Below, piece after piece: positions 20,580 through 63,117 of a stretch of 64,000 bases of DNA. Positions within the stretch are counted from its first letter, which is position 1; every line of letters starts with the position of its first letter. The notes under the pieces are model-generated. The model was not told the DNA's origin. It ran no database searches and was given only the letters and a program-made list of their open reading frames with translations. This DNA comes from Streptomyces resistomycificus (GTDB lineage Bacteria > Actinomycetota > Actinomycetes > Streptomycetales > Streptomycetaceae): NCBI RefSeq assembly GCF_001514265.1, contig NZ_KQ948992.1, forward strand, positions 248,001 to 312,000. Reading direction: 5' to 3'. Made by a program: the position numbers and the translations under genes.

Positions 20580-20594
20580 CTGACGGGTAGTCAG
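20580..20594. promoter_or_regulatory. Regulon palindrome 1 (ligase side)
   Basis: CTGACGGGTAGTCAG, with perfect 5-bp arms. It lies 18 bases upstream of the GTG of the ligase at 19021-20562. Confidence 0.75.
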
Positions 20595-20670
20595 ATCGTG
20601 GGCAGAGCGTAGGGCCCGGTGCCTTGTCGGTCCAGAGGCGCGGGGCTAGCCTTCCCGGGAGCAGCAAAAA

Positions 20671-20685
20671 CTGATGAGGCGTCAG
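20671..20685. promoter_or_regulatory. Regulon palindrome 2 (dehydrogenase side)
   Basis: CTGATGAGGCGTCAG. One arm deviates by one base. It covers the alternative ATG 20674 and so supports the GTG 20707 start of the dehydrogenase. Confidence 0.65.
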
Positions 20686-25048: not shown

Positions 25049-25095
25049 GGGTCCTTCCCGGGGCTTGTCTCCGACAGTCTGGCGGGTCATAAAAT

Positions 25096-25110
25096 CTAAC
25101 GGTCCGTCAG
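25096..25110. promoter_or_regulatory. Regulon palindrome 3 (cyclase / SDR)
   Basis: CTAACGGTCCGTCAG, one base off perfect arms. It is shared between the divergent cyclase gene and the SDR operon. Confidence 0.72.
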
Positions 25111-30937: not shown

Positions 30938-31552
30938 CTAGCCGAACCTGCCCCGGTGGAACAGCAGGGGCGGGAGGTCCTCCTCGTTCGTGCCGAGCGC
31001 CTCCACCCGTCCGACCACGATCAGGTGGTCGCCGCCCGTGTGCACCGCGTGGATCGTGCAGTCGATCCACGCGAGCGTGCCCGCGAGGCGCGGCGAGCCG
31101 GAGACGGGCGCCGGGTCGTGGGCCACCCCCGCGAACTTGTCCCGGCCGCTCACCGCGAAGCCACGGCACAACTCGCCCTGGTGGGCGCCCAGGACGTTGA
31201 CGCAGAAGACGCCGGCCCGGGCGATCCGCGGCCAGGTCGTGGACGTACGGCCGACCATGAAGACGACGAGGGGCGGGTCGAGGGAGAGGGAGGAGAACGA
31301 CTGGCAGGCGAATCCGGCGGGAGCGGTCTCGCCGTCTGTCGCGGGCGCCGTCACGACGGTCACGCCGGTCGCGAAGCTCCCCATCACCCGCCGGAACTCG
31401 CCCTGTTCGACGGGCGCCCGCTCGTCCTCGCCCACACAGCGCAGCTCGGGGCGCGGCAGGGCTTCCACCGGGGCCGTGGGCGCGGTCCCGGCCGACCTGA
31501 GGTAGCGCACTGCGGCTTCGGCCATCCCGGCTTGTCCCATCACGTCACCCAT
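30938..31552 (-). CDS. Flavin reductase (HpaC/HsaB-like)
   Basis: About 204 residues. The flavin reductase domain begins near FRRVMGSFATGVTVVTA, with AGFACQSFSSLSLDPPLVVF and DHLIVVGRVEALG. Members supply reduced FMN/FAD to two-component monooxygenases, such as HsaA in steroid A-ring cleavage. No matching oxygenase is in the window; its partner must lie elsewhere, or be the LLM protein at 63114. ATG 31552 lies only 5 bases from the operator; ATG 31537 or 31525 are alternatives. It is controlled by the palindrome at 31558. Confidence 0.87.
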   Translation of the reverse strand: MGDVMGQAGMAEAAVRYLRSAGTAPTAPVEALPRPELRCVGEDERAPVEQGEFRRVMGSFATGVTVVTAPATDGETAPAGFACQSFSSLSLDPPLVVFMVGRTSTTWPRIARAGVFCVNVLGAHQGELCRGFAVSGRDKFAGVAHDPAPVSGSPRLAGTLAWIDCTIHAVHTGGDHLIVVGRVEALGTNEEDLPPLLFHRGRFG

Positions 31553-31557
31553 TGAAA

Positions 31558-31572
31558 CTGACGGAGCGTCAG
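31558..31572. promoter_or_regulatory. Regulon palindrome 4 (flavin reductase)
   Basis: CTGACGGAGCGTCAG, with perfect 5-bp arms. It abuts the start of the flavin reductase, where a ribosome site would normally be. Confidence 0.75.
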
Positions 31573-31605
31573 ATGGGAAGGGGTGGAGCGGGACTCCGAC
31601 GGGCT

Positions 31606-32481
31606 TCAACGGCCCCGGAACACTGCGCTTCTGCGCTGTACGAAGCTCGCCACGCCCTCCCGGGCGTCCGCCGTCGTCATGTTGACCTCCTGGGCCGCCG
31701 CCTCGGCGGCGAAGGCGGTGGCGCGGTCGGTGTCGAGGGAGGAGTTGACGAGTTGCTTGGTGAGGGCGAGCGTGCGGGTCGGGCCGGTGGCCAGGCGCTC
31801 GGCCCAGGCGCGGGCCGTCCTGTCCAGCTCCTCGTCCGGGACGACCCGGTTGACCAGCCCGAGCCGCTCGGCGTCCGACGCGGTCAGCGCGTCCCCGAAG
31901 AACATCAGCTCCTTCGCGCGCCGCGGGCCGATCAGACGGGGCAGGAGATAGGCGCCCCCGCCGTCGGGGACGAGCCCGCGCCGCACGAACACCTCGATGA
32001 ACCTGGCGGACTCCGCGGCGAGTACGAGGTCGCAGGCGAACGCGAGATGGGCGCCGAGGCCGGCCGCGGTGCCGTTGACCGCGGCGATCACCGGCTTCTC
32101 GCAGTCGAGGACGGCGGCGACCAGACGCTGGGCGCCCGCGCGGATCGTGCGGGCCACGTCACCGGCGACCCGGTCGCCTGCCGGAGGCCCGCCGCGAAGG
32201 TCCGCGCCCGCGCAGAAGCCACGGCCGGTCCCGGTGAGGACGACGGCCCGTACGTCCGGGTCGGTGGAGGCTCCGTCGAGCAGCCGGATGATGCGTTCTC
32301 GCTGGTCAGGGGTGATGGCGTTGAGGGCCTCGGGTCGGTTGAGGGTGATCCGGCTGACCTGGTTGTCAGTGGTGTGCCGTATCAATGACTCAACGGAATC
32401 TTCCGGCACGTCGGTCTTTGCGTCGGTACGGGGGGAGTCGGACATGTTCGTCTCAGGTGCGTTCGCCTCAGGGCTGCTCAT
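31606..32481 (-). CDS. Enoyl-CoA hydratase/isomerase
   Basis: 291 residues of the crotonase fold. The CoA oxyanion segments are GRGFCAGADLRGG and VNGTAAGLGAHLAFACDLVLA, and VRRGLVPDGGGAYLLPR carries an acidic residue of the active-site region. It hydrates trans-2-enoyl-CoA in beta-oxidation. The N-terminus (about 30 residues) is polar and may be shorter, since ATG at residue 13 is also possible. It starts one base after the stop of the ADP-forming synthetase, so the two are coupled in one operon under the palindromes at 34742 and 34766. Confidence 0.9.
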   Translation of the reverse strand: MSSPEANAPETNMSDSPRTDAKTDVPEDSVESLIRHTTDNQVSRITLNRPEALNAITPDQRERIIRLLDGASTDPDVRAVVLTGTGRGFCAGADLRGGPPAGDRVAGDVARTIRAGAQRLVAAVLDCEKPVIAAVNGTAAGLGAHLAFACDLVLAAESARFIEVFVRRGLVPDGGGAYLLPRLIGPRRAKELMFFGDALTASDAERLGLVNRVVPDEELDRTARAWAERLATGPTRTLALTKQLVNSSLDTDRATAFAAEAAAQEVNMTTADAREGVASFVQRRSAVFRGR

Positions 32482-32482: not shown

Positions 32483-34708
32483 TCAGGTGCACACCACCAG
32501 CGCGTCCAGAGCCACCGCGCCCTGCCCCCTGGGCAGCACCATCAGCGGGTTGATGTCGAGCTCCGCGACATGGTCCCCGAGTTCGAGGGCCATGCGCTGC
32601 ACCCGCAGGACGACTTCGACGAGCGCGTCGAGGTCCGCCGGGGGGCGCCCCCGGACCCCGTCGAGCAGGGCCCGCCCGCGCAGCTCGGCACACATGTCCC
32701 GCGCCTGTTCCTCGCCGAAGGGCGGCACCCGCACGGCCACGTCCCGCAGCACCTCGACGAGCACCCCGCCCAGCCCGACGGTCACCGTCGGGCCGAACAG
32801 CTCGTCGTGGGTGACGCCGACGACCATCTCGACGCCCCGCTCGACCATCTGGCAGACGAGGACGCCGTCCAGGGAGACGTCCTCGTAGCGGGCGATGTCG
32901 GTCAGCTCCCGGTAGGCGTCCCGGACCTGGCTGGCCGAGGTCAACCCGATCTTCACCAGGCCGAGCTCCGTCTTGTGGGCGATCCGCGCGCCGGACGCCT
33001 TCATCACCACCGGGTAGCCCACCAGGCCGGCCGCCCGCACGGCCGCCGCCGCGCTGGTCACCAACTGCTCGCGCGGTACCCGGATCCCGTACGCCCGCAG
33101 CAGCTGCTTCGCCGCGTGCTCGCTCAGCTGCTGGCCGGGGCGCATCAGCTCGCGCGCCTTGCGGAAGGAGGGCGAAGGGGTGCGGGGTGCCGAGTCGAGA
33201 GGAGAGCGGTAGCGGGTCACGAAGCGGTGGTGGTCGAGGTGGGCGCGGACCGCGGTGAGGCAGTTGGCGACCGTGCGGAAGGTGGCCACCCGGGACGAGC
33301 CGAGCAGGACCTCGCGGTAGGCCGGTTCGGTGCCGACCGGCGACCCCCACACCACGCACACCAGTTTGTCGGTCCGCTCGGCGGCGTCCACCAGGTCCTG
33401 GACGAGCCGGTCGCTCAGGGGCGGGAAGGGCCCGGTGATCGGGCAGATCAGCACACCGACCTCGGGGTCGGCGAGGATCGCGTCGATGATCTTCCGGCCG
33501 CGCCAGTCGCCGACCGGGTGCCCGCCGTTGTCGACGGGGTTGGCCACGTTGAGGTACTCGGGTATCCACTGGTGCAGCTCGGCCTGCCGGGCCTGCGACA
33601 GCTCGGGCAGGCTCAGGCCGGCCTCGGTTGCCAGGTCGGCGACGTGCGCGCCCGTGCCGCCCGAGATCGAATAGACCACCACGCCGTCCGCCCGGGGCGG
33701 CCGGGCGCGGGCCAGCAGGGCGGCGGTGTCCTGGAGTTCGTCGAGGCCGTCGACCCGGATCACCCCGTACTGCCGCATCGCCGCGTCCACCACCGCGTCC
33801 GCGCCGGTCAGCTTGCCGGTGTGTGAGGCGGCCGTGCGGGCGCCGGTCTCGGTGCGGCCCACCTTGACCGCGACCACCGGCACCCCGCGCCGGGCGGCCC
33901 GGTCGGCGGCGAGCAGGAAGGAGCGGCCGTCCTTCAGCCCCTCGACGTAGCAGGCGATGGCGCCGACCTCGGGCTGCTCGGCGAAGTAGGAGAGGAAGTC
34001 GGAGGTCTCCAGGTCGGCCTCGTTGCCGGTGGGCGCCCAGTGGGAGAGCCGGATGCCGAGTTCCTGGAGGGCGAAGACGGGGCGGCCCTGGTGACCGGAC
34101 TGGGTGATCAGGGCGATCGCCGGACCGGCCAGGTCGTCCCGGAAGTGCTCGAAGGCGTTGAGGTTGGTGTTGGGGCCCAGCATCCGCATCCCGGACCTGT
34201 TCACGGCCGCCGCGAGCCGCGCCTGCGCGATCGCGCCCTCCGCACCGGTCTCCGCGAACCCGGAGGCGAAGACGACCGCGAACCTCACCTTGGCCTCGGC
34301 GAGTTCCTCGATCACGGGGAGGGGGTCGGCGACCAGCAGCACGGCGAGGTCGACCTGCTCGGGCAGGTCGGCGACGGAGGGGGAGCAGGGGATGCCGAAG
34401 ACGGACGGGCGGGTGGGATGCACAGGGTGCAGGCGGGCCCCGACGCGCTCGGACCAGGCGAGCAGTTGGCGGGTGACCCCCGTGTTGGGCCGCCCTTCGG
34501 CGTCCGAGGCACCGATCACCGCCACGGACCGAGGGCGGAAGAGGCGGTCCAGATCGGGGACGTCGGAGTACAGCGGCCGCCCGCTGACGTCGAGATCGTC
34601 GACCTCGGCGGGCCGGCCGTGGACGGCGGGTCCGGGTTGCTCGCCGCAGGCGATGACCCGGGCTCGGCGGGAGTCGGTGGTGAGGGTGCCGTGGGTTGAT
34701 CCAAGCAT
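32483..34708 (-). CDS. ADP-forming acyl-CoA synthetase (acetate-CoA ligase family)
   Basis: 741 residues from ATG 34708. The order is CoA-binding domain (PRSVAVIGASDAEGRPN), a flavodoxin-like Succ-CoA-ligase domain with phosphohistidine region (AASHTGKLTGADAV), and an ATP-grasp domain (AKQLLRAYGIRVPRE, GYPVVMKASGARIAHKTELG, AELDINPLMVLPRG). It makes acyl-CoA with ATP to ADP and Pi. The substrate could be a short acid released in the pathway, such as propionate or acetate, but this is inference. It leads the operon with the hydratase. Confidence 0.9.
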   Translation of the reverse strand: MLGSTHGTLTTDSRRARVIACGEQPGPAVHGRPAEVDDLDVSGRPLYSDVPDLDRLFRPRSVAVIGASDAEGRPNTGVTRQLLAWSERVGARLHPVHPTRPSVFGIPCSPSVADLPEQVDLAVLLVADPLPVIEELAEAKVRFAVVFASGFAETGAEGAIAQARLAAAVNRSGMRMLGPNTNLNAFEHFRDDLAGPAIALITQSGHQGRPVFALQELGIRLSHWAPTGNEADLETSDFLSYFAEQPEVGAIACYVEGLKDGRSFLLAADRAARRGVPVVAVKVGRTETGARTAASHTGKLTGADAVVDAAMRQYGVIRVDGLDELQDTAALLARARPPRADGVVVYSISGGTGAHVADLATEAGLSLPELSQARQAELHQWIPEYLNVANPVDNGGHPVGDWRGRKIIDAILADPEVGVLICPITGPFPPLSDRLVQDLVDAAERTDKLVCVVWGSPVGTEPAYREVLLGSSRVATFRTVANCLTAVRAHLDHHRFVTRYRSPLDSAPRTPSPSFRKARELMRPGQQLSEHAAKQLLRAYGIRVPREQLVTSAAAAVRAAGLVGYPVVMKASGARIAHKTELGLVKIGLTSASQVRDAYRELTDIARYEDVSLDGVLVCQMVERGVEMVVGVTHDELFGPTVTVGLGGVLVEVLRDVAVRVPPFGEEQARDMCAELRGRALLDGVRGRPPADLDALVEVVLRVQRMALELGDHVAELDINPLMVLPRGQGAVALDALVVCT

Positions 34709-34741
34709 CGGTCCGCCCGCTCCTGTGTGACAGCCAATTAA

Positions 34742-34756
34742 CTGACGGTCTGTCAG
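34742..34756. promoter_or_regulatory. Regulon palindrome 5
   Basis: CTGACGGTCTGTCAG, with perfect arms; the operator proximal to the synthetase gene. Together with palindrome 6 it encloses a TAATCT -10-like element on the minus strand. Confidence 0.78.
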
Positions 34757-34765
34757 ATTACAGAA

Positions 34766-34780
34766 CTGACGGGTTGTCAG
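34766..34780. promoter_or_regulatory. Regulon palindrome 6
   Basis: CTGACGGGTTGTCAG, with perfect arms. Its centre lies 24 bases from that of palindrome 5. On the minus strand TTCCTG overlaps its outer edge, 17 bases from TAATCT. Confidence 0.78.
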
Positions 34781-34885
34781 GAACGGCCCTGCACGCAAAG
34801 GATGCCCTCCGGACCGGCGAGGGAACCGTGGGGAGGGGGAGTCGGGGAGTCCGGAGGCAGGCGGGGGAGAGCGGAGGCGGGAGTT

Positions 34886-38604: not shown

Positions 38605-38619
38605 CTGACGTACCGTCAG
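38605..38619. promoter_or_regulatory. Regulon palindrome 7 (DoxX-DUF35)
   Basis: CTGACGTACCGTCAG, with perfect arms. It ends 29 bases before ATG 38649 of the DoxX gene. Confidence 0.75.
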
Positions 38620-38648
38620 ATATGGCTTCGGCGTCGGCAGGAGCGTCC

Positions 38649-39098
38649 ATGGACACGATCTGGCTCACCGGTGCGCAGTGGTTGGCCGTGTTGCGTATCG
38701 GGCTCGGGCTGTGGTGGCTGGAGAGCTGGCGGCACAAGGACAAGAAGGCCTGGTTCGAGGGGGCGGGGATCGCCTGGGCCGCGGACGTGGCGGCCAAGCA
38801 CCGGTGGAACGCGGTGCGCGGCGGCTTCGGCGTCGTCGTCACGCCGTATCCGAAGACCATGGCGTACGTCGTCGTGTACGCGGAGCTCGCGCTCGGCCTC
38901 GGGTTGATCCTCGGCGCCCTGACGCCGGTCGCCCTGGTCGGCGGGTTGCTGCTCAACCTGCTCTACCTGGTGCTGATGATCCACGACTGGGCCGAGCAGG
39001 GGCAGAACTCGATGATGGCGCTGATCTCGGTGGTGGCCCTGTTCGGGATGTCCTGGCAGACCTGGTCGCTGGACAGCGCGCTGGGGCTCTTCGGGTGA
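38649..39098 (+). CDS. DoxX-family membrane protein
   Basis: 149 residues from ATG 38649 (AGGAG 5 bases upstream; ATG 38622 is less likely because it lies next to the operator). About four membrane helices: QWLAVLRIGLGLWWLESW, then AYVVVYAELALGLGLILGA, PVALVGGLLLNLLYLVLM and ALISVVALFGMSW. DoxX-type proteins are small quinone-linked or scaffold membrane proteins. It is the first gene of a two-gene unit in the palindrome regulon, and its stop overlaps the DUF35 start. Confidence 0.82.
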   Translation: MDTIWLTGAQWLAVLRIGLGLWWLESWRHKDKKAWFEGAGIAWAADVAAKHRWNAVRGGFGVVVTPYPKTMAYVVVYAELALGLGLILGALTPVALVGGLLLNLLYLVLMIHDWAEQGQNSMMALISVVALFGMSWQTWSLDSALGLFG

Positions 39099-40675: not shown

Positions 40676-41578
40676 TCAGTCCGGCAGCCAGTGCAGCTCG
40701 TGCGCCAGGGTTTTGGCGACGGCACGGACGCGGCGGTGCAACGGCGACTGCTCGCGTGGGAGGACCAGGTGGATCGTCAGGCTGGGCCCGCCCCGCAGCG
40801 GTCGCCAGGTGAGACCGGCCGGTTGTGCCGTGACCGCGGCTTCTCCGGCCGGGGCGAGGGTGACCCCGTCGCGCAGGTCGCGCTGAGACATGTCGAAGGA
40901 GACTGCGGGCGTGTGGAACCGGGGGTGTGGTCGGGTGTCTCGGAACAGTGCGGACAGCTGATCGTGGATCACGGGGTTGGCCGCACGGTCCGGGAGTCGC
41001 AGCGGATACGCGGCCGCGTCGGCGATCTCGATCTCCGGGTGTTCGGCCAGCGGATGGTGCTGCGCCAGCTGGACCCCGATGCGCGCACGCCGCAGCAGGA
41101 ACCGGCGCACGCCACGGCCCGGCTGTTCACCGCGGGTGATACCGGCATCGATGCGGCCGTCGGCGACCGCGGGGGAGATCTCCGGTGTCGCCATCGGGAC
41201 CGCGCCGACCTCGAGTCCGCTGTTGCCGCGAATCAGCCTGTCCACCAGGGCAGGTGCCGTCTCGGCCCCGGTACTGAGGCTGTATCCGATGCGCAGCGTG
41301 CCCAGTTCACCGACCGCCGCGCTCCGGGCGGTGTCCCATGCCCGGTCCAGCGCCGCCAGTGCGGGCGGCGCGGACTCCGCCAAAGCCGCGCCGGCCGTGG
41401 TCAATACGACGCTACGCGTGGTGCGGACCAGCAGAGCCGTACCGAGTTCCGCCTCCAATCGGCGCATCCGGGCGCTGAGTGCGGGCTGCGCGATGCCGAT
41501 CCGTGCGGCCGCGCGGGTGAAGTTCAACTCCTGCGCCAGCACCAGGAAGTACCGCAGGCTCACCGTATCCGGCGCCAC
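40676..41578 (-). CDS. LysR-family transcriptional regulator
   Basis: 300 residues from GTG 41578 (GGGAGGG 4 bases upstream). The winged helix-turn-helix reads LRYFLVLAQELNFTRAAAR, QPALSARMRRLEAELGTAL; the ligand-binding domain follows (IGYSLSTGAETAPALVDRL). It is divergent from the DUF1330 gene at 41767 with 188 bases between them, the classical LysR-target layout. It probably controls that gene together with its own. Confidence 0.92.
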   Translation of the reverse strand: MAPDTVSLRYFLVLAQELNFTRAAARIGIAQPALSARMRRLEAELGTALLVRTTRSVVLTTAGAALAESAPPALAALDRAWDTARSAAVGELGTLRIGYSLSTGAETAPALVDRLIRGNSGLEVGAVPMATPEISPAVADGRIDAGITRGEQPGRGVRRFLLRRARIGVQLAQHHPLAEHPEIEIADAAAYPLRLPDRAANPVIHDQLSALFRDTRPHPRFHTPAVSFDMSQRDLRDGVTLAPAGEAAVTAQPAGLTWRPLRGGPSLTIHLVLPREQSPLHRRVRAVAKTLAHELHWLPD

Positions 41579-41766
41579 GTGCCCTCCCTGCCGATTGATA
41601 ACGATCCATTCTGAGCCTAGCCCGTACCGGTCTTTCCCTCGACCGCACATCAAGCCCTAACCTGCGCCTATGGCGATTCAACTGACCGCAGTACCCGTCG
41701 CCGGGATCGATCGATCTGAGTGTCAATTCGAAGTCGGACGTGTCCGGCCCAACACAGGAGGATTCC

Positions 41767-43681: not shown

Positions 43682-44860
43682 CTACGGACGAGTTCGCCCC
43701 AGCACCACCGTCCCCGACGAGCAGAACCAGCCGCCCGTCCCCGAGGCCACCGCCAGTTCCGGCAGCCGCCCCCCGTCCTTGCGGACCTGGCGGCCCTCCG
43801 CCTCCCCGCGCAGCTGCCGTACCGCCTCCACCAGCAGGAACAGTCCCCGCATGCCGGGATGCTGGGCCGACAGCCCGCCCCCGTCCGTGTTCACGGGCAG
43901 TTCGCCGCCCTCGACCCGCAGCCGGCCCTTCTCCACGAACGCCCCGCCCTCGCCCTTCCCGCAGAAGCCGAGGTCCTCCAGGGTCACCAGCGTCATGTAC
44001 GTGAACGCGTCGTAGATCTCCGCGAAGTCGATCTCCCCGGGTCCGACGCCCGCCCGTTCGAAGGCGAGCCGTCCGCTGACCGCCGCCGGGGACACCGTGA
44101 AGTCGGCCCACTCGGACATCGCGGAGTGGGAGACGTGCTCCCCGGTGCCGAGGATCCACACCGGTGCCGTACGGCAGTCCGTCACGTAGTCCTCGGCGGC
44201 GAGCAGGACCGCCGCCCCGCCGTCGGACCGCAGGCAGCAGTGCAGCTTGGTGAAGGGGTCCGCGATCATCGGGCCGGACAGTACGTCGTCGACCGTGACC
44301 GGGTCGCGGAACATCGCCTCGGGGTTCAGGGCGGCGTTGGCCCGCGCCTGCACCGCCACCTCCGCCAACTGCTCGATCGTCGTGCCGTGTTCGAGCATGT
44401 GGCGGCGGGCCGCCATGGCGTACTTGGCGATCAGTGTGTGGCCGTACGGCACCTCGAACTGGAGCGGTCCCCGGGAGCCGAACGACAGGTTCCCCGTGCG
44501 GCGGCCCGACTTGACGTCCGCGCGGGCCGTCGAGCCGTAGGCCAGCAGCACCGCGTTCGCGTGGCCGGCGGCGATCGCGTCCGCCGCGTGTGCGGCCATG
44601 ACCTCCCAGGTGGAACCGCCCACCGACGTCGAGTCGACCCAGGTGGGACGCAGGCCCAGGTACTCGGCGACCTCGATAGGCGCGAGGGTGCCGGTGCCCG
44701 CCGAGGCGAAGCCGTCGACCAGCGAGCGTTCCAGGCCCGCGTCGGTCAGGGCGCGGCGGGCGGCCTGGGCGTGCAGGGCGTAGGCGGTCGCGTCGTCCAC
44801 GCGGCCGCAGTCGGAGAGGGAGACGCCGACGATCGCGACTTTCCGGGAGCCGGTCCTCAT
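43682..44860 (-). CDS. Thiolase-fold lipid-transfer protein (Ltp2-like aldolase)
   Basis: 392 residues. Thiolase fold (KVAIVGVSLSDCG at the start, SVGGSTWEVMAAHAADAI), but at the position of the usual nucleophile Cys the loop reads SVGGSTWE, so it is not a standard thiolase. YDAFTYMTLVTLEDLGFCG and KGEGGAF are the Ltp2 signature, including the tyrosine used by steroid side-chain aldolases. With a DUF35 partner this group cleaves 17-hydroxy-steroid acyl-CoA into a ketone and propionyl-CoA. The partner may be the DUF35 at 39095. Operator 44865 lies 4 bases upstream of the ATG. Confidence 0.87.
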   Translation of the reverse strand: MRTGSRKVAIVGVSLSDCGRVDDATAYALHAQAARRALTDAGLERSLVDGFASAGTGTLAPIEVAEYLGLRPTWVDSTSVGGSTWEVMAAHAADAIAAGHANAVLLAYGSTARADVKSGRRTGNLSFGSRGPLQFEVPYGHTLIAKYAMAARRHMLEHGTTIEQLAEVAVQARANAALNPEAMFRDPVTVDDVLSGPMIADPFTKLHCCLRSDGGAAVLLAAEDYVTDCRTAPVWILGTGEHVSHSAMSEWADFTVSPAAVSGRLAFERAGVGPGEIDFAEIYDAFTYMTLVTLEDLGFCGKGEGGAFVEKGRLRVEGGELPVNTDGGGLSAQHPGMRGLFLLVEAVRQLRGEAEGRQVRKDGGRLPELAVASGTGGWFCSSGTVVLGRTRP

Positions 44861-44864: not shown

Positions 44865-44879
44865 CTGACGGTACATCAG
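44865..44879. promoter_or_regulatory. Regulon palindrome 8 (Ltp2-like gene)
   Basis: CTGACGGTACATCAG, one base off. It sits 4 bases upstream of the ATG at 44860 with no room for a ribosome site, suggesting a leaderless message. Confidence 0.68.
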
Positions 44880-44907
44880 ATACGGCGGTGTGCGGCAGGT
44901 GTCACGA

Positions 44908-44960
44908 GGTGGCCGACGTCATGCCGCGAGAGCCGTGGCCGACGTCATGTCGCGAGAGCT
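44908..44960. repeat. 26-base direct repeat in the divergent interval
   Basis: Two adjacent near-identical copies of GTGGCCGACGTCATG plus CGCGAGAGC, followed by degenerate GCGAGTGC units. They lie between the Ltp and dehydrogenase genes. Confidence 0.5.
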
Positions 44961-45045
44961 GCCACGAGTGCTTTCGCGAGTGCTGTCGCGACAGCTGCCG
45001 TGAGAGCTGTCACGGGGCTGGGCATCCCGCGCCGCCCGCCCTAAT

Positions 45046-45060
45046 ATGACGGCCCGTCAG
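45046..45060. promoter_or_regulatory. Regulon palindrome 9 (dehydrogenase operon)
   Basis: ATGACGGCCCGTCAG, one base off at the outer end. It lies 28 bases upstream of ATG 45089. Confidence 0.7.
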
Positions 45061-45088: not shown

Positions 45089-46273
45089 ATGGACGCCGGC
45101 TTCACCGCTGAGCAGGACGAGATCCGCCGCACCCTGCGCGAGCTGCTCCGCAAACGCTGTGGGCCCGCCGACGTGCGCGCCGCCGTCGACACCCCGGCCG
45201 GACACGACCCCACCCTGTGGTCCGCCCTCGCCGAACACCTCGGGCTGCCCGGCATCGCCCTCCCCGAGGCCTACGGCGGTGTCGGCTGCTCGGTGACCGA
45301 ACTCGCCCTGGCCTTCGAGGAGACCGGCCGCCGCCTGGCCCCCACGCCCCTGTTCGCCACCGCGGCCCTCGCCGCCCCGCTGCTGCTCGCCCTCGGCACG
45401 GACGCCCAGCGGGCCGGGCTGCTCCCGGGCATCGCCGCCGGCTCCCTGACCGCCACCCTCGCCGTACCCGGCACCCACCTCTCCACCGCCCTCGCCCTCA
45501 CCGGTGACAACGACGGCGGCTGGGCGGGCGGCGGCCGGGCCGGGGGCGTGCAGGCCAGGCGGGCGGGGGAGGGCTGGCGGCTGTACGGGCAGGCCGACCA
45601 GGTGCTCGACGGGCACAGTGCCGGGCTGCTGCTGGTCGCCGCCCACGCGGGCGGGTTCGCCCGCTCGCGGACGCTGCTCTTCCTGGTGCGCGGGGACGCG
45701 GCCGGACTCGTGCGGGCCCGGCAGACCGCCCTCGACGCGACCCGGCCGCAGGCGCGTGTCCAACTGAGGGAGGTGGCAGCGGAGTTGCTGGGCGACGAGG
45801 AGACGGACGTACGCACCGCGCTCACCGCTCTCGGTGACGCGGCCGCCACCGTCCTGGCGGGCGAGGCCGTCGGGGCCGCCGACCAGGTACTGAAGCTGAC
45901 CGTCGAGTACGTGCGGCAGCGCGAGCAGTTCGGGCGGCCGATCGGGTCCTTCCAGGCGGTGAAGCACCGGCTGGCCGACGTCTACGTACAGGTGCAGGCG
46001 GCCCGCTCGGCGGCCTACTACGCGGCGTGGGCCGCGGCGAACGGGGAGCGGGTCGGACGGCTGGCCCTCGCGCAGGCCCTCGAAGCCCTGCGCCGCGCGT
46101 CCGCCGAGGGGATCCAGCTGCACGGCGGCATCGGTTTCACCTGGGAGCACGAGGCTCACCTGTACTTCAAGCGGGCCGCCGGGGACGAGCTGCTGTTCGG
46201 GCCGGTGCACCGGCTGCGGGCGCACGCCGCCGACGCGGCTCGGCTCTTCCAGGGGCAGGAGGTGACGGTGTGA
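45089..46273 (+). CDS. Acyl-CoA dehydrogenase, FadE small-subunit-like
   Basis: 394 residues from ATG 45089 (GAGGAGG upstream). It begins DAGFTAEQDEIRRTLRELL, the central FAD domain lacks the flavin signature found in the large subunits, and it ends EQFGRPIGSFQAVKHRLAD and QLHGGIGFTWEHEAHLYFK, the form seen in partner subunits. It may pair with the subunit at 26152, which has no partner next to it; this is inference. Its stop overlaps the start of the next gene. It belongs to the palindrome regulon. Confidence 0.88.
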   Translation: MDAGFTAEQDEIRRTLRELLRKRCGPADVRAAVDTPAGHDPTLWSALAEHLGLPGIALPEAYGGVGCSVTELALAFEETGRRLAPTPLFATAALAAPLLLALGTDAQRAGLLPGIAAGSLTATLAVPGTHLSTALALTGDNDGGWAGGGRAGGVQARRAGEGWRLYGQADQVLDGHSAGLLLVAAHAGGFARSRTLLFLVRGDAAGLVRARQTALDATRPQARVQLREVAAELLGDEETDVRTALTALGDAAATVLAGEAVGAADQVLKLTVEYVRQREQFGRPIGSFQAVKHRLADVYVQVQAARSAAYYAAWAAANGERVGRLALAQALEALRRASAEGIQLHGGIGFTWEHEAHLYFKRAAGDELLFGPVHRLRAHAADAARLFQGQEVTV

Positions 46274-46772: not shown

Positions 46773-47432
46773 TCAGAGCGTCGCCAGTCGCTGGACCAAC
46801 AGCAGCGTCCCGATGCCCAGCATGGCCGCCCCCGACGTCCGGGTGACCGCCCGCGCGGCGGCCGGGCGGGCGCCGAGGACCGCGCGGGCCGCGAGGCCGA
46901 CCGTCAGGTAGACGGCGGCGCAGCACGCCATGTGGAGCAGTCCGAATACGGCGGTCTGCGCGGCCACAGGCAGGTGCCCACCCCCGGTGACCAGGAACTG
47001 CGGCAGGACCGACAGGTAGAGCAGCAGGCCCTTGGGGTTCAGGCCGCTGATCGTGGCGCCGCGCAGGAAGACGCGGGCGGGAGACGGGGTCACGGGCTCT
47101 CCCGCCGACTCCGCAGACTCCGCCGACCCCGTCGGCGCCCCTGTGTCCGGGGTGCCGGGCCTGCGCAGCAACCCCCACCCCAGCCACACCAGGTAGGCGG
47201 CGCCGGCGGCCGTCAGCGCGGTGAGCAGGCCGGGCGAGCGCGCCACCAGGACCGCGAGACCGGCCACCGCCAGCACCGTGTGCAGGGCGTAACCGGAGAC
47301 GAGTCCGGCCACCGCCACCACCGGAGACCGGTCCCTCAGGCCCGCCGAGATCGCGTACGCCCAGTCCGCGCCCGGCACGCACACCAGCAGCAGGTCGACG
47401 GCGAGGAAGGAGATGAGGGTTCCCGAGTGCAT
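46773..47432 (-). CDS. LysE/RhtB-family amino-acid exporter
   Basis: 219 residues from ATG 47432. About six membrane helices: GTLISFLAVDLLLVCVPGAD (with the family P-G-x-D after helix 1), VVAVAGLVSGYALHTVL, and FLRGATISGLNPKGLLLYL. It exports amino acids such as homoserine, threonine or leucine. It is divergent from an Lrp/AsnC regulator 82 bases away, the usual regulator-exporter pair. It has no regulon palindrome and reads convergently to the catabolic operon ending at 46740. Confidence 0.9.
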   Translation of the reverse strand: MHSGTLISFLAVDLLLVCVPGADWAYAISAGLRDRSPVVAVAGLVSGYALHTVLAVAGLAVLVARSPGLLTALTAAGAAYLVWLGWGLLRRPGTPDTGAPTGSAESAESAGEPVTPSPARVFLRGATISGLNPKGLLLYLSVLPQFLVTGGGHLPVAAQTAVFGLLHMACCAAVYLTVGLAARAVLGARPAAARAVTRTSGAAMLGIGTLLLVQRLATL

Positions 47433-47514
47433 GGTGGGGACATTAGGCGCAATGGGGTCGAAAGTGTTGTCGAAGTTTGCCCATGATCCGTGCTTTGGGA
47501 GGAGAATCTCTCCC

Positions 47515-48006
47515 ATGGACGACGTGGACCGGAAGATTCTTGCCGAGCTGCAGCAGGACGGGCGGCTGACCGTGACCGAGCTGGCCGCACGGGTGCGGCT
47601 GAGCGTCTCGCCGTGCCACCGGCGACTGCGTGAGCTGGAGCGGTCGGGGGCGATCAGCGGCTACCGGGCCGTCGTGGACCCGACGGCCGTCGGGCTGACC
47701 TTCGAGGCGCTGGTCTTCGTCTCGATGCGGCAGGAGGACCGGGACACGGTCGTCGGGTTCGAGCGGGCGCTCGGCGAGGTGGAGGAGGTGCTGGAGGCGC
47801 AGCGGCTGTTCGGGGAGCCCGACTACCTGCTGCGGGTCGTCGCCGCCGACCTCGCCGCCTACCAGCGGCTCTACGACGAGCGCCTCGCCACCCTGCCGGG
47901 CGTGCAGCGGCTGACGTCCACGCTGGTGATGAAGCACGTGGTCAGGGACCGGCCCCTGCCGGCACAGCGCGGCGGGCGGCAGTCCGGTGGACTGCCGCCC
48001 GCGTGA
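47515..48006 (+). CDS. Lrp/AsnC-family transcriptional regulator
   Basis: 163 residues from ATG 47515 (GGGAGGAG about 9 bases upstream). The helix-turn-helix is MDDVDRKILAELQQDGRL, with TELAARVRLSVSPCHRRL; the RAM effector domain follows (VVGFERALGEVEEVLEAQ, GEPDYLLRVVAADLAAY). It is divergent from the LysE exporter and very likely responds to an amino acid to control it. The last 20 residues are a basic, Gly-rich tail. Confidence 0.92.
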   Translation: MDDVDRKILAELQQDGRLTVTELAARVRLSVSPCHRRLRELERSGAISGYRAVVDPTAVGLTFEALVFVSMRQEDRDTVVGFERALGEVEEVLEAQRLFGEPDYLLRVVAADLAAYQRLYDERLATLPGVQRLTSTLVMKHVVRDRPLPAQRGGRQSGGLPPA

Positions 48007-48043: not shown

Positions 48044-48691
48044 CTACTTCGTCGGCTTCTTGCCGGTCACGCCCAGGTGCACCAGTAGCGCCAGGTTCGG
48101 CTTGAGTTCGGCCTGCTTGACGCCCCACGTCTGGAAGCCCTTCTGATGCGAGGCGACGGCCGCGAGCATCGCGACGATCGAACCCGCCACGGCCGCGGGG
48201 TTCACGTCCTTGTCGACCCGGCCCTTGGACTGCAGTTCGGCGACCGCGTCCGAGAGGGAGTTGTTCACGGAGTTCAGGATCTTCATACGGAGCTTGTAGA
48301 ACCGCTTGTCGCCCTCGGCGGCCCCGAGGTCGACGACCCGGAGGATCGCGTCGTTGCGGCGCCAGAACTCCAGGAAGCCGTCGACGAGTTCCTGTGAGGT
48401 CTGCCAGCCCGCCTTGCCGACCCAGGAGCGTCCGGCGACCAGATCGGTCAACTCGGCGCCCTCGGCGGCCATTTGCTCCGCGATCTCCAGGACGGCGCCT
48501 TCGACGTCCGGGAAGTACTGGTAGAAGGTCGCGGGTGAAGTCCCCGCCTTCCGGGCGACATCGATGACTTTGACGTCCCGGTAAGGGGAGGAGCTGAGCA
48601 TCTCGCTGAGGCAGTCGAGCAGCTTCTGCCGGGTCGCCTGCCCACGCCGGCCGGCCACCCGGCCGTCGACGGTACGCACTTGTCCTGTCAT
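48044..48691 (-). CDS. TetR-family regulator, proposed controller of the palindrome regulon
   Basis: 215 residues. The TetR helix-turn-helix is RQKLLDCLSEMLSSSPYRD, with VARKAGTSPATFYQYFPDV (residues about 19-66). The C-terminal ligand domain is all helical and hydrophobic (for example ELVDGFLEFWRRNDAILRV, PAAVAGSIVAMLAAVASHQ), as in CoA-thioester or lipid-sensing TetR proteins. The ATG lies inside a degenerate copy of the regulon palindrome (48685-48699), which suggests autoregulation. It is divergent from kbpA and matches the position of SCO4421. The control of the catabolic operons is inferred from the operators, not shown. Confidence 0.85.
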   Translation of the reverse strand: MTGQVRTVDGRVAGRRGQATRQKLLDCLSEMLSSSPYRDVKVIDVARKAGTSPATFYQYFPDVEGAVLEIAEQMAAEGAELTDLVAGRSWVGKAGWQTSQELVDGFLEFWRRNDAILRVVDLGAAEGDKRFYKLRMKILNSVNNSLSDAVAELQSKGRVDKDVNPAAVAGSIVAMLAAVASHQKGFQTWGVKQAELKPNLALLVHLGVTGKKPTK

Positions 48692-48699
48692 GCCGTCAG
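48685..48699. promoter_or_regulatory. Regulon palindrome 10, weak, over the TetR start codon
   Basis: The minus strand reads CTGACGGCATGACAG, 11 of 13 defined bases of CTGACGGnnCGTCAG. The ATG start codon of the TetR gene lies within it, a layout that would allow autorepression. Confidence 0.5.
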
Positions 48700-48813
48700 C
48701 TTACCGAGGGGTGATCGGAGCGCGATTCGGCCGACTGCAAATGGGGTGCGCGGGTGTGCGGGGGCGGGTGTGCCTGGTCTGCGGGGTGCGGGAGACGCCG
48801 TTACTTTGGCGGC

Positions 48814-49554: not shown

Positions 49555-49724
49555 ATCCTGCTTTGATGTGAGACACCCCATTTGTTTCCGGGTTCGCAAC
49601 CGGCGCCCCGGCCAGGAAGAATCAGGGTGCGTGCCGCCATGGCGGTGCGGTGGTGAGACGCTGCACGGGGTCGTGCACACACGTGGGCGTGACGCGGCCC
49701 GTACGGGGAGGTGGCAGGCAAGTG

Positions 49725-52073
49725 GTGGATCAGCTGACGCAGCACGATCCGCGCAGGATCGGGCCGTTCGAGGTGCTGGGACGGCTGGGTGCCGGCGGCA
49801 TGGGGCTGGTCTATCTCGCGCGCTCGGCGTCCGGCCGGCGCGTGGCGATCAAGACGGTCCGTACGGAGCTCGCGGAGGACCAGCTCTTCCGGGTGCGCTT
49901 CACCCGTGAGGTGGAGGCCGCCCGGGCGGTCTCCGGCTTCTACACGGCGGCCGTGGTCGACGCCGATCCCCGTGCGGCCGTGCCCTGGCTGGCCACCGCG
50001 TACGTGCCCGCCCCCTCCCTCGAGGAGATAGTGAACGAGTGCGGGCCCATGCCGGCCCAGGCGGTGCGCTGGCTCGCGGCGGGCGTCGCCGAGGCGCTTC
50101 AGTCGATCCACGGCGCCGGGCTGGTCCACCGCGACCTCAAGCCCTCCAACGTGCTGGTCGTCGAGGACGGCCCCCGGGTCATCGACTTCGGCATCGCGTC
50201 CGGCGTTTCGAACACACGTCTGACGATGACCAACGTGGCCGTGGGCACCCCCGCCTACATGTCCCCCGAGCAGGCGAAGGACTCCCGCAGCGTCACCGGC
50301 GCGAGCGACGTCTTCTCGCTCGGTTCCATGCTGGTGTTCGCCGCCACGGGCCACCCGCCCTTCCACGGCGCCAACCCCGTCGAGACCGTCTTCATGCTGC
50401 TGCGCGAGGGACCGGACCTCGAAGGCCTCCCGGACGAGCTGCGCCCCCTCATCGAGTCCTGCATGCAGATGGAGGCCACGGCCCGCCCCAACCCGGCCGA
50501 CCTCCAGTCCCAGCTCGCCCCCCACCTCTTCGGCTCCGGCTCCGACGACAGCGGTACGGCGTCGGCGTGGCTGCCCGAGCGGGCGGTGGGCCTCATCGAG
50601 GCGCGCCGCGGCGGCAGACCGCCGAAACCGGCGCAGGCCGGCGGACGCAGCGGCGGCGGCCGGATCGGCGCGGTACCGCCTCCGCCGTCCCGCGATCCCG
50701 TGATCCCGGCTCCGGCGCCGTCCCCGGTGTCCGTGGGCGCCCCCGACACCGGCCCGGTGCGTCTCGCCGGCGCCCAGGTGCCCATCGGGCCCGGCCCGCG
50801 TGTCGCCGACGCCCGCGCCGCCGCCGTCAAGGCACCCCCGCCCGAGGCCGGCCTGGTCGCGACCTGGTCCAGGCCCCGCCCCGGCGTCAACGGCGCCGAC
50901 CCCGCCGTGACCGCCGCGCCGCCCGTCCCCCCGGAGACCGCGGCCGGCTGGCGCCCCTGGCGCTTCCGCATGTCCAACGACGTCTGGGGCACCCCCTCCG
51001 TCGCCGGCGACCTCGTCTACGTCACCTCCTTCGAGGTACACGCGCTGGACGTGGCCACCGGCCGGCGGCGCTTCAAGACACGGGACGTGGCCTGGTCGAT
51101 GGCGGTCGCGGACGGCCGGGTCCACGCCTCCGACGGGCCCACCCTGTTCGCCCTGGACGCCCGCGAGGGCGGGGACCTGTGGCGGCTGTCCACGGACGCC
51201 TGGGTGTACTCCGTCAAGGCCGACCGGGGCACCGTGATCACCGGCACCCGCGGCGGCGGCGTCCAGGCCTGGGAGGCCTCGGGCGGTCAGAAGCTGTGGG
51301 AGCTCACCGGCTGTCAGAGCGACTTCGAGTCCCCGGAGGCGGGGCCCACCCTGCACGAGGGCACGGTGTACGTCTGGCACGACGCCCGGCTGCGCGCCCT
51401 GGACGCCCGCAGCGGCGACGAGCGCTGGTCGTACCCCATCGGCGACGCGGCCTCCTGCGGCGGCGTGCCGGTCCGGGTCGCCCAGGCGCACGACGGCCAT
51501 GTGTACGTGTCGGCGGGTACCCGGGTGCTGGCCCTCGACGTGGCGAGCGGCCGCGTCCGCTGGCACTTCGAGGCGCCGGCCGTCTTCCTCTGCCCGCCGA
51601 CCTTCGTGCCCGGCCCCGCGGTCGCCGGCGGCGGTGTGTACCTGGCCGACTACCTCGGCACGGTCTACGCCCTCGACGCGACCGACGGCCGTGACCGCTG
51701 GCGTATCGCCACCGAGGCCCGCTCCTCCGTCGACTCGGTACTGGTGGCCGGCGGCCATGTGCACGTGGGCAGCGGCAAGGGCCTCTACACCCTGGACGCG
51801 GTCACCGGCACGCCCAAGTGGCGCTTCCAGGCGGGCGGCGACATCGTCGGCGCCCCCACGGTCGCCGAGGGCCGCATCCACTTCGGCTCCACCGACCACC
51901 TGCTCTACACCCTGAAGGCCGACGACGGCCGCCTGCGGTGGAAGCTCGCGACCGGCGGCGAGATCACCGGCTCCCCGGTCGTCAAGGACGGCGTCGTGTA
52001 CGCGTGCAGCAAGGACCGGTGCGTGTACGCGCTGGACGCGGAGAAGGGGACCGGGACGGCACGCACCCCGTGA
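49725..52073 (+). CDS. afsK: Serine/threonine protein kinase AfsK
   Basis: 782 residues from GTG 49725 (GTG 49722 equally possible). A kinase domain (about residues 12-275) with GRLGAGGMGLVYLAR, the lysine in RRVAIKTVRTEL, HRDLKPSNVLV, IDFGIASGVSN and GTPAYMSPEQ. A Pro/Ala-rich linker (about 305-400) joins a C-terminal beta-propeller of PQQ-like repeats (ALDVATGRRRF, ALDARSGDERW, ALDATDGRDRW, ALDAVTGTPKW-like). No transmembrane helix is seen. AfsK phosphorylates AfsR in the control of antibiotic production. Sequence, length (about 799 in S. coelicolor) and position support the name. Confidence 0.95.
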   Translation: MDQLTQHDPRRIGPFEVLGRLGAGGMGLVYLARSASGRRVAIKTVRTELAEDQLFRVRFTREVEAARAVSGFYTAAVVDADPRAAVPWLATAYVPAPSLEEIVNECGPMPAQAVRWLAAGVAEALQSIHGAGLVHRDLKPSNVLVVEDGPRVIDFGIASGVSNTRLTMTNVAVGTPAYMSPEQAKDSRSVTGASDVFSLGSMLVFAATGHPPFHGANPVETVFMLLREGPDLEGLPDELRPLIESCMQMEATARPNPADLQSQLAPHLFGSGSDDSGTASAWLPERAVGLIEARRGGRPPKPAQAGGRSGGGRIGAVPPPPSRDPVIPAPAPSPVSVGAPDTGPVRLAGAQVPIGPGPRVADARAAAVKAPPPEAGLVATWSRPRPGVNGADPAVTAAPPVPPETAAGWRPWRFRMSNDVWGTPSVAGDLVYVTSFEVHALDVATGRRRFKTRDVAWSMAVADGRVHASDGPTLFALDAREGGDLWRLSTDAWVYSVKADRGTVITGTRGGGVQAWEASGGQKLWELTGCQSDFESPEAGPTLHEGTVYVWHDARLRALDARSGDERWSYPIGDAASCGGVPVRVAQAHDGHVYVSAGTRVLALDVASGRVRWHFEAPAVFLCPPTFVPGPAVAGGGVYLADYLGTVYALDATDGRDRWRIATEARSSVDSVLVAGGHVHVGSGKGLYTLDAVTGTPKWRFQAGGDIVGAPTVAEGRIHFGSTDHLLYTLKADDGRLRWKLATGGEITGSPVVKDGVVYACSKDRCVYALDAEKGTGTARTP

Positions 52074-56091: not shown

Positions 56092-56106
56092 CTGACAGTG
56101 CGTCAG
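56092..56106. promoter_or_regulatory. Regulon palindrome 11
   Basis: CTGACAGTGCGTCAG, with perfect arms. On the plus strand its first hexamer CTGACA can serve as -35, exactly 17 bases from TAATCT (56115-56120), for the FadD3 gene. Confidence 0.78.
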
Positions 56107-56118
56107 GTTACAGCTAAT

Positions 56119-56133
56119 CTGACGGGCAGTCAG
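56119..56133. promoter_or_regulatory. Regulon palindrome 12
   Basis: CTGACGGGCAGTCAG, with perfect arms, 45 bases upstream of GTG 56178. It overlaps the -10 element TAATCT by two bases. Confidence 0.78.
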
Positions 56134-56177: not shown

Positions 56178-57800
56178 GTGCGCGAGGACGTGGAGTGGGG
56201 CAGCATTCCGGGGCTGGTCAGGTCGGCGGCCGAACGGTACGCGGACGCCGAGGCGGTGGTGGACGGCCGGACCCGGATCTCGTACGCGGAGCTCGGCGCC
56301 CGGGTGGAGCGGGCGGCGGCCGCCTGCGTCGCGAACGGGGTCTCGGTCGGTGACCGGGTCGGGGTCTGGGCCCCGAACTCCCTGGACTGGATCGTCTCCG
56401 CCCTGGGCGCGGTCTCGGCGGGCGCGGTCCTCGTCCCCCTGAACACGCGCTTCAAAGGGGCGGAGGCGGCGGACGTCCTGCGCCGCTGCGGTGCGCGCCT
56501 GCTGTTCGTGACCGGGACGTTCCTCGGCACCTCGTACGTGGCGTCGCTGCGGCGGGCGGCGGGGGAGGGGGCCGGGCCCGGCCCGCTGCCGGGGCTGCCG
56601 GCGCTGGAGCAGGTGGTGGTGCTGTCGGACGACGCGCCCGCCGACTTCCGTACCTGGAAGGACTTCCTGGTGAGCGGGGACGGGGTCGGGGAGGCGGCGG
56701 TACGCGCCCGCGCCTCGGCGCTGCACGGCGGACTGCCCTCGGACATCATCTACACGTCCGGGACGACCGGCCGCCCCAAGGGCGCGGTGATCACCCACGC
56801 GCAGACCCTGCGGGCCTACGCGGTGTGGAGCGACCTGGCGGGACTGCGGCGGGGCGACCGCTACCTGATCGTGAACCCCTTCTTCCACACCTTCGGTTAC
56901 AAGGCGGGCATCGTGGCCTGTCTGATGAGGGGCGCGACGATGATCCCCCAGCCGGTCTTCGACGTCGACACGGTGCTGGCGAACATCGCGGCGGAACGCG
57001 TGTCGGTCCTGCCGGGCCCGCCGACCCTGCACCAGTCGCTCCTGGACCACCCCGCGCGTGACGCCCACGACCTGTCGGCCCTGCGCCTGGTGGTGACCGG
57101 CGCGGCGGTGGTGCCGCTACGGCTCGTGGAACGCCTGCGCGGTGAACTGGGCGTCGGCACGGTCCTCACCGCCTACGGCCTGTCCGAGGCCTGCGGCGTC
57201 GTCACGATGTGCCGCCGCGGCGACGACCCGGCGGTGATCGCGTCGACCTCGGGGCGCGCGATACCCGGCACGGAGGTGCGGGTGGTGGACGCGGACGGGG
57301 CCGCCGTGGGCCCCTCAGTTCCCGGCGAGGTCCTGGTCCGCGGGTTCAACGTCATGCGCGGCTACTACGAGGACGCGCCGGCGACGGCGGAGGTTGTGGG
57401 GCCGGAGGGCTGGCTGCGGACGGGCGACGTGGGCGTGCTCGACGAGGCGGGCAACCTGCGCATCACCGACCGCCTCAAGGACATGTTCATCGTCGGCGGC
57501 TTCAACGCCTACCCGGCGGAGATCGAGCAACTCCTCGGCCTGCACCCGGACGTGGCGGACGTGGCCGTCGTCGGCGTCCCCGACCCGCGACTCGGGGAGG
57601 TCGGCAGGGCATACGTGGTCCGGCGGCCGGGGGCCGTGCTGACGGGGGACGACCTGATCGCGTGGGCGCGGCGCGAGATGGCGAACTACAAGGTGCCCAG
57701 AGCGGTGGAGTTCCTGGACGAGCTGCCTCGCAACGCCGGAGGCAAGGTCGTGAAGGGGGAGCTGCGGAGGCGGCAGGGGCAGTCGACGGCGGGGCGGTGA
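56178..57800 (+). CDS. fadD3: FadD3-like AMP-forming acyl-CoA ligase
   Basis: 540 residues from GTG 56178. P-loop IIYTSGTTGRPKGA, NPFFHTFGYKAGIVACL, VLPGPPTLHQSLLDHPAR, TAYGLSEACGVVTMCR and DRLKDMFIVGGFNAYPAEIE are all very close in order and wording to mycobacterial FadD3. FadD3 makes the CoA thioester of the steroid C/D-ring fragment HIP (a propanoate on an indanedione). The substrate here is not proven, but the close resemblance is the strongest pointer to steroid-like chemistry. It is divergent from the Ltp-DUF35 operon and carries two operators. Confidence 0.9.
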   Translation: MREDVEWGSIPGLVRSAAERYADAEAVVDGRTRISYAELGARVERAAAACVANGVSVGDRVGVWAPNSLDWIVSALGAVSAGAVLVPLNTRFKGAEAADVLRRCGARLLFVTGTFLGTSYVASLRRAAGEGAGPGPLPGLPALEQVVVLSDDAPADFRTWKDFLVSGDGVGEAAVRARASALHGGLPSDIIYTSGTTGRPKGAVITHAQTLRAYAVWSDLAGLRRGDRYLIVNPFFHTFGYKAGIVACLMRGATMIPQPVFDVDTVLANIAAERVSVLPGPPTLHQSLLDHPARDAHDLSALRLVVTGAAVVPLRLVERLRGELGVGTVLTAYGLSEACGVVTMCRRGDDPAVIASTSGRAIPGTEVRVVDADGAAVGPSVPGEVLVRGFNVMRGYYEDAPATAEVVGPEGWLRTGDVGVLDEAGNLRITDRLKDMFIVGGFNAYPAEIEQLLGLHPDVADVAVVGVPDPRLGEVGRAYVVRRPGAVLTGDDLIAWARREMANYKVPRAVEFLDELPRNAGGKVVKGELRRRQGQSTAGR

Positions 57801-61821: not shown

Positions 61822-61836
61822 CTGACGGGTCGTCAG
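61822..61836. promoter_or_regulatory. Regulon palindrome 13 (amidohydrolase operon)
   Basis: CTGACGGGTCGTCAG, with perfect arms, 21 bases upstream of ATG 61858. It sits in the divergent interval with afsR (61647-61857). Confidence 0.78.
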
Positions 61837-61857
61837 ATCGGCGCTACCGTGCCCCCT

Positions 61858-63117
61858 ATGGAGACCATAGTCACCGAAGCCGTCGAGACGGACCCGGCAC
61901 TTCCGCTGATCATCTCCGTCGACGACCACACCGTTGAGCCCCCCACCGTCTGGCAGGACCGGCTTCCCAGGAGGTACCTGGACACGGGGCCCCGCGTAGT
62001 CCGCGCCCCGCTCAGGGAGATGACCTTCCTCGGCGGCCGCTTCAAGCCCGTGATGGGCACTCCCGGCACCGACGACGGCCCGGTCGGCGACTGGTGGGTC
62101 TACGAGGACCTGCACCGCCCCCTCACCCGCCTCGACACCGCCGTCGGCTACAGCAGGGACGAGATCAGGCTCGAGGTCATCACGTACGAGCAGATGCGGC
62201 CGGGCTCGTACGACGTGCCGCAGCGCCTCGCCGACATGGACGTCAACCACGTCCAGTCCGCCGTCTGCTTCCCGACCTTCCCGCGGTTCTGCGGCCAGAC
62301 CTTCACCGAGGCCGCCGACCACGAGCTGGGCCTTCTGTGCGTCCAGGCCTACAACGACTGGATGGTGGAGGAGTGGTGCGGGCCCCAGGCGCGCGGCCGC
62401 CTCATACCGCTGACCCTCATCCCGCTCTGGGACGCCGAGCTCGCGGCCCGTGAGGTACGGCGGAACGCGGCCCGCGGCGTCCGGGCCGTCGCCTTCTCCG
62501 AGATACCCCCGCACCTGGGCCTGCCGTCCGTCCACACCGACGACTGGGACCCCTTCCTCGCCGCCTGCGACGAGACCGGCACGGTCGTCGCCATGCACAT
62601 CGGCTCCAGCAGCCGTATGCCGTCCACGTCGAAGGACGCCCCGCCCGCGGTCGGCTCCACCATCACCTTCGCCAACTGCTGCTTCTCGATGGTCGACTGG
62701 CTGATGAGCGGCAAGTTCGAGCGCTTCCCCAACCTGCGGGTGATGTACGCGGAGGGCCAGATCGGCTGGATCCCGTACATCCTCGAACGCGCCGACATCG
62801 TGTGGGAGGAGAACCGCGGCTGGGGCGGGGTCGCCGACAAGGTGCACCGGCCGCCGTCCGAACTCTTCGCCGAACACGTCTACGGCTGCTTCTTCGACGA
62901 CGCCTTCGGCCTGCGCAACCTGGACGCCATCGGCGTCGGCAACGTCCTCTACGAGACCGACTACCCCCACTCCGACTCCACCTGGCCGAAGTCCAAGGAG
63001 GTCGGCGAGGCGCAGATGGGGCACCTGGACGCGGACGTCGTGGAGCGGATCGTACGGGGGAACGCGATCGATCTCCTCGGGCTCACACCGGACGGACTCT
63101 GGGACGGTCCGAGGTGA
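61858..63117 (+). CDS. Amidohydrolase-family protein (PF04909-like)
   Basis: 419 residues from ATG 61858; a longer GTG 61849 start is less likely. TIM-barrel marks: IISVDDHTVEPPTVWQDR near the start, HIGSSSRMPST and LFAEHVYGCFFDD, and YETDYPHSDSTWP near the C-terminus. Family members are metal-dependent hydrolases or decarboxylases, many acting on aromatic or cyclic acids. It lacks a good ribosome site, so the message may be leaderless. It is the first gene of an operon with the LLM oxidoreductase. Confidence 0.88.
   Translation: METIVTEAVETDPALPLIISVDDHTVEPPTVWQDRLPRRYLDTGPRVVRAPLREMTFLGGRFKPVMGTPGTDDGPVGDWWVYEDLHRPLTRLDTAVGYSRDEIRLEVITYEQMRPGSYDVPQRLADMDVNHVQSAVCFPTFPRFCGQTFTEAADHELGLLCVQAYNDWMVEEWCGPQARGRLIPLTLIPLWDAELAAREVRRNAARGVRAVAFSEIPPHLGLPSVHTDDWDPFLAACDETGTVVAMHIGSSSRMPSTSKDAPPAVGSTITFANCCFSMVDWLMSGKFERFPNLRVMYAEGQIGWIPYILERADIVWEENRGWGGVADKVHRPPSELFAEHVYGCFFDDAFGLRNLDAIGVGNVLYETDYPHSDSTWPKSKEVGEAQMGHLDADVVERIVRGNAIDLLGLTPDGLWDGPR

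Follow-up and report, generated by a model that had tools for sequence, protein, structure and literature searches.

The tetR locus and its neighbourhood

The stretch of DNA analysed here (the window) comprises 64,000 nucleotides of the Streptomyces resistomycificus genome and carries one gene of the TetR family:

48044-48691, minus strand: TetR-family repressor gene (TetR_C_38), presumed SCO4421 orthologue, assigned from its open reading frame and domain matches

A TetR_N scan of the whole genome identified 117 TetR genes with only this one inside the window, in keeping with the initial annotation, which had described it as the sole TetR gene of the stretch. The open reading frame begins with ATG and encodes a 215 aa protein belonging to both TetR_N (26.7 bits, curated cut-off 24) and TetR_C_38 (PF19352), the latter matched from end to end (240.9 bits, curated cut-off 23.9). 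An AlphaFold2 model of the protein is all helical with a TetR fold (pLDDT 92, pTM 0.84), and TSPATFYQYF, the recognition-helix core, does not vary within alignment A2. The solved fold nearest to the predicted structure is EthR, aligned over 190 residues that make up almost the full protein (Z 19.5, rmsd 2.4), with FasR, DesT, FadR and others behind it at Z ~15. The C-terminal domain had been proposed to be of the lipid- or CoA-sensing kind, which is plausible in that the predicted fold fits a lipophilic or acyl-CoA ligand, with the reservation that EthR is nearest and the fatty acyl-CoA regulators come further down. Identity with KstR (14.2 bits, model cut-off 280) and FasR (14.2 bits, model cut-off 330) was rejected, as was identity with the nucleoid occlusion factor SlmA (28.2 bits, cut-off 120), though this was the top NCBIfam match.

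Divergent from tetR is a glyoxalase-fold KbpA-like gene (start 48814), followed by an AfsK-like kinase gene (49650-52073) and, further along, an AfsR-like gene. A TetR gene beside kbpA-afsK is the SCO4421-type context, SCO4421 being the TetR gene near afsK in S. coelicolor (PMC3878966), and on this basis tetR is most likely the SCO4421 orthologue. Expression of SCO4421 is WhiA-dependent in sporulating hyphae and spore chains, with a deletion mutant (strain K319) having no visible phenotype (PMC3878966). The ~45 bp upstream of the tetR -10 element (48704-48748, minus strand, CCCCATTTGCAGTCGGCCGAATCGCG...GATCACC), lying between tetR and kbpA, is strongly conserved across many Streptomyces genomes, a conservation absent from the most divergent genera, and may contain a developmental or kbpA promoter element.

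Predicted operator sites across the window

Sites were scored with a matrix trained on sites of distant loci together with those of two further distant loci (L060 and L061), using no Streptomyces sequence. Twelve strong sites of 23-31 bits were found in the window, the thirteenth being the tetR start site (14.1 bits) and the next scoring 8.4, while the best score in the reversed window was 6.3. The strong predicted operators, with the amidohydrolase gene downstream of the last, are as follows:

20580-20685: a 23.6-bit operator at 20580 and a 24.9-bit operator at 20671, the latter covering the ATG (20674) predicted for an acyl-CoA dehydrogenase gene
25096-25110: operator (26.4 bits) in the gap separating a cyclase-family gene (24122-25090, minus) from a divergent SDR gene (25132-26043, plus)
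31558-31572: operator (26.0 bits) where a flavin reductase gene begins (30938-31609, minus)
34742-34780: operators at 34742 (31.1 bits) and 34766 (24.2 bits), where an ADP-forming acyl-CoA synthetase gene begins (32483-34798, minus)
38605-38619: operator (29.1 bits) just 5' of a DoxX-like gene (38622-39098, plus)
44865-45060: operators at 44865 (28.2 bits) and 45046 (29.2 bits) in the gap separating a thiolase-fold gene (43682-44860, minus) from a divergent acyl-CoA dehydrogenase gene (45089-46273, plus)
56092-56133: operators at 56092 (23.0 bits) and 56119 (25.2 bits), flanked by a thiolase-fold/OB-fold operon (minus) and by a gene for an AMP-forming CoA ligase (56178-57800, plus)
61822-61836: operator (25.4 bits) 5' of the amidohydrolase gene, with the start codon of the AfsR-like gene ~180 bp downstream of it
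61849-63117, plus strand: amidohydrolase gene (PF04909), the best-conserved regulon target

Elsewhere in the genome strong sites were found at genes for an isochorismatase-type hydrolase, three luciferase-like oxidoreductases and AMP ligases and at an OB-fold/dehydratase gene. A gene similar to the flavin reductase gene at 30938-31609 adjoins tetR in one other genome (G044), also with a site. Operators are often paired, 24-38 bp apart, as at 34742/34766 and 56092/56119 and after tetR in loci L112, L115, L118 and L124, and double sites also occur at the ADP-forming acyl-CoA synthetase gene family in Actinomadura.

Linkage of the motif to the TetR subfamily

A scan based on a TetR_C_38 alignment yielded 80 loci, 39 of which lie outside Streptomyces (Acidimicrobiia, Actinomadura, Frankia and others). 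The 568 kb of these distant loci hold 56 exact copies of CTGAC-N5-GTCAG, with the reversed pattern and the N3, N4 and N6 spacings giving none and N7 giving one. Likewise, 81 matrix sites of at least 18 bits were found, against none in the reversed sequences, with 68 of the 81 outside predicted genes even though genes make up 81% of the sequence. Sites cluster just upstream (11 of 81, 0.95 expected) and just downstream (14 of 81, 1.23 expected) of tetR, figures that are indicative because the loci include close relatives and the expected counts overstate their independence. The distant sites adjoin the same gene families as those in the window.

Among 198 sampled genomes of the phylum, 7/8 with TetR_C_38 outside the family carried the strict motif, as did 35/182 lacking TetR_C_38 (Fisher p 1e-4). 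One genome counted among the latter (G163) holds a homologue after all. A few genomes with no clear TetR_C_38 hit (G258, G199, G160 and G177) also have several sites. Raw per-genome palindrome counts were left out for genera with high numbers (up to 377 sites), as dispersed repeats could be inflating the counts there. In genus g14 some genomes (G027, G041 and G081 among those concerned) carry at least 300 CTGAC-N5-GTCAG palindromes and others ~45, such that a dispersed repeat is suspected.

These comparisons establish at the sequence level that the motif and the TetR subfamily travel together across actinobacterial classes. Within S. resistomycificus, the remaining 116 TetR genes are all more than about 4 kb away from any exact site. 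The initial annotation had put forward this TetR as controller of the regulon, a proposal that gains support from the motif tracking its subfamily and no other regulator of the window. It is very probable that the product of 48044-48691 acts as a self-limiting repressor of a scattered acyl-CoA catabolic regulon through one palindrome.

A conserved site over the tetR start codon

The features at the start of tetR are as follows:

48685-48699, minus strand: predicted self-operator CTGACGGCATGACAG, weak (14.1 bits), with the ATG (48691-48689) inside it
48698-48703, minus strand: -10-like TAAGCT, six bases before the ATG and overlapped by the operator

The sequence CTGACGGCATGACAG has a single occurrence in the genome (48699-48685, minus strand). 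It agrees with CTGACGG...CGTCAG at 11 of 13 positions, confirming the match across the ATG on the minus strand that had been counted initially, and with CTGAC-N5-GTCAG at 9 of 10. Dinucleotide shuffling of the window yields 0.19 hits of at least 14 bits per 64 kb, and the chance of such a hit falling no more than 12 bp from a given start codon is about 7e-5. The score of 14.1 bits alone is no proof, because a few unrelated hits of 14-15 bits occur in other stretches of the same genome. It is the position and the conservation that argue for a genuine site, with CTGACGNNATGACAG present in 88 of 91 Streptomycetaceae start regions, even where the upstream sequence has diverged. The three departing start regions have an extra spacer base (L039) or CTGACTG (L120 and L134).

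The arrangement recurs in other genera, where stronger sites are present at tetR. In Actinomadura, CTGACGGTATGCCAG covers the tetR start codon and TAAACTGACGGTATGCCAGAAAC has the ATG in the same register with Pro rather than Thr as second residue, while in Aquihabitans CTGACGGGTCGTGAG overlies a GTG start codon and in another distant locus a perfect palindrome falls within the first codons of tetR. In other distant loci full sites lie 30-80 bp upstream of tetR or 14 bp inside it. Within the window, 20671-20685 shows the same layout, the start codon predicted for the acyl-CoA dehydrogenase gene (ATG at 20674) lying under a strong operator.

At a position where T is 96% conserved elsewhere, the Streptomycetaceae self-site carries A, and since it lacks this highly informative base weak autoregulation is expected. 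Judged from sequence conservation, the repressor probably limits its own production through the start-codon operator, and probably weakly. The autoregulatory layout first read from this locus is supported by its conservation and its recurrence in other genera, but the self-site, with one key base missing, is weaker than the target sites.

The -10-like element TAARCT is invariant in the relatives compared, and its position six bases 5' of the ATG suggests a leaderless tetR promoter. A simple promoter scan scored no sigma-70 consensus promoter at the tetR start. Codons 2-4 of tetR (ACA GGA CAA) are conserved past the operator, which may reflect translation of a leaderless message.

The predicted amidohydrolase target and the breadth of the regulon

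The operator is found 5' of the amidohydrolase gene in 16/19 homologues of distant loci. In Streptomycetaceae 29 of 30 orthologues carry it in almost the same position, the arms being invariant or nearly so and the spacer varying. The regulator is the more widespread, with a TetR orthologue in all 101 Streptomycetaceae genomes and the amidohydrolase in 47, bearing out the earlier suggestion that homologues exist where catabolic genes may be absent; TetR must therefore have other work. Within the genus, site density is 4.8 per Mb in genomes with the amidohydrolase and 2.5 in those lacking it, although genome size also differs between them. Two genomes (G012 and G098) keep TetR and the self-site with few sites, among which no convincing surviving core catabolic target was seen in those inspected.

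Large Streptomyces plasmids carry TetR paralogues (L047-L051) that are ~40% identical, several lying beside ligA, HU or DNA-modification genes. The CTGAC palindrome is absent from the promoters of these plasmid paralogues.

Proposed mode of regulation

From these arrangements we infer binding and repression along the following lines. A dimeric TetR-family repressor would bind the 15-bp palindrome CTGACGNNNCGTCAG within a longer AT-flanked site, located at promoters or start codons in genes that serve acyl-CoA activation and breakdown. The predicted targets include CoA ligases, acyl-CoA dehydrogenases, enoyl-CoA hydratase, thiolase and OB-fold proteins and flavin reductase, along with luciferase-like oxidoreductases, the isochorismatase-type hydrolase and the amidohydrolase. 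A pathway intermediate, probably an acyl-CoA or other lipophilic acid, would release the repressor. The weaker palindrome extends over both the -10 region and the start codon in the apparently leaderless tetR; if the message is leaderless, a dimer bound there would cover the -10 element, the transcription start and the start codon, blocking RNA polymerase and holding the level of the repressor low.

The self-site (48685-48699) lies 122 bp before kbpA, in the upstream region shared with kbpA-afsK, and the 61822 site ~180 bp before afsR, in the upstream region shared with afsR. Release by acyl-CoA could conceivably also alter the AfsK/AfsR pathway, a doubtful extension to which we assign little weight; if true, this repressor would couple acyl-CoA supply to antibiotic control.

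Alternative explanations

The conservation at the start of tetR might be explained differently if TetR controls the regulon while the start-codon sequence is a conserved -10 element and leaderless gene start and no operator. The position of TAARCT is that expected of the -10 of a leaderless start, the A-ending codons 2-4 are conserved beyond the operator and the self-site reaches 14.1 bits compared with 23-31 for the targets. However, hardly any variation is seen in the GACG that separates the -10 element from the ATG, whereas the base that follows does vary, Actinomadura retains xCAG behind its ATG despite encoding another amino acid there, in sites scoring 18.9-20.4, and other loci have full sites upstream of tetR or inside it, such that we regard this account as unlikely. 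Far less credible is that another regulator, encoded inside or outside the window, binds the palindrome with TetR as a bystander. The window does encode Lrp (47413-48006), LysR (40676-41653) and AraC-like (28461-29501) regulators, some genomes have sites with no clear TetR_C_38 hit and a TetR_C_20 gene is divergent from tetR in three distant loci, but the other regulators of the window have no homologue (1e-20) in the 39 motif-bearing distant loci, and no other TetR gene of the genome adjoins an exact site, with sites clustering at this tetR.

A broader question is whether the main task of the regulator in Streptomycetaceae is developmental or chromosomal, the catabolic regulon being secondary and kept in some species. 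The regulator outnumbers the core amidohydrolase in the family (101/101 against 47), the few sites of G012 and G098 include none at a clear catabolic gene, SCO4421 is expressed WhiA-dependently in spore chains, plasmid paralogues lie beside ligA or HU genes and SlmA heads the NCBIfam matches, far below threshold. Set against this, strong sites with recognisable targets are nearly all at catabolic genes, the plasmid paralogues lack the motif and SlmA scores 28 against a cut-off of 120, and a chiefly developmental or chromosomal role appears improbable. The reading preferred here is that of a repressor of acyl-CoA catabolism acting at its targets and, weakly, on its own gene.

Comparison with known systems

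EthR of Mycobacterium tuberculosis is the closest solved fold but is ~18% identical to this TetR, and its operator and regulon differ from those of this TetR. The palindrome of KstR and KstR2 differs from CTGAC-N5-GTCAG. AccR of Streptomyces avermitilis is a TetR repressor of acyl-CoA genes responding to short-chain acyl-CoA (PMC8546615, PMC10933834); its motif GTTAA-N6-TTAAC, taken from a review, has no copy in the window even when one mismatch is allowed, and the AccR regulon was rejected as an explanation of the sites. AcrT of actinomycetes is a TetR repressor that leaves DNA upon binding acyl-CoA, but its motif nttGaTc is unrelated and its orthologues are SAV4017 and SCO4194, not SCO4421 (PMC8546615), and AcrT was rejected on both counts. 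SCO4421 is likewise a TetR gene close to afsK, for which the literature gives developmental expression and a phenotype-free deletion, with no operator or targets given in the publications found. For TetR_C_38 no description of an operator or regulon was found in the literature searched.

Systems of this kind are already known, KstR being one such TetR repressor that controls itself along with a scattered catabolic regulon. KstR and KstR2 are autoregulated TetR repressors of mycobacterial steroid catabolism with many palindromic sites scattered over acyl-CoA catabolic genes (for KstR, PMC1995591, PMC3068626). For a regulator found in every sampled Streptomycetaceae genome, the present analysis would define its operator, its targets and the way it controls itself, with the same regulator-operator pair predicted to run in Acidimicrobiia and Actinomadura. 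Many acyl-CoA enzymes with no known substrate would be joined in one regulon, whose inducer would point to the substrate.
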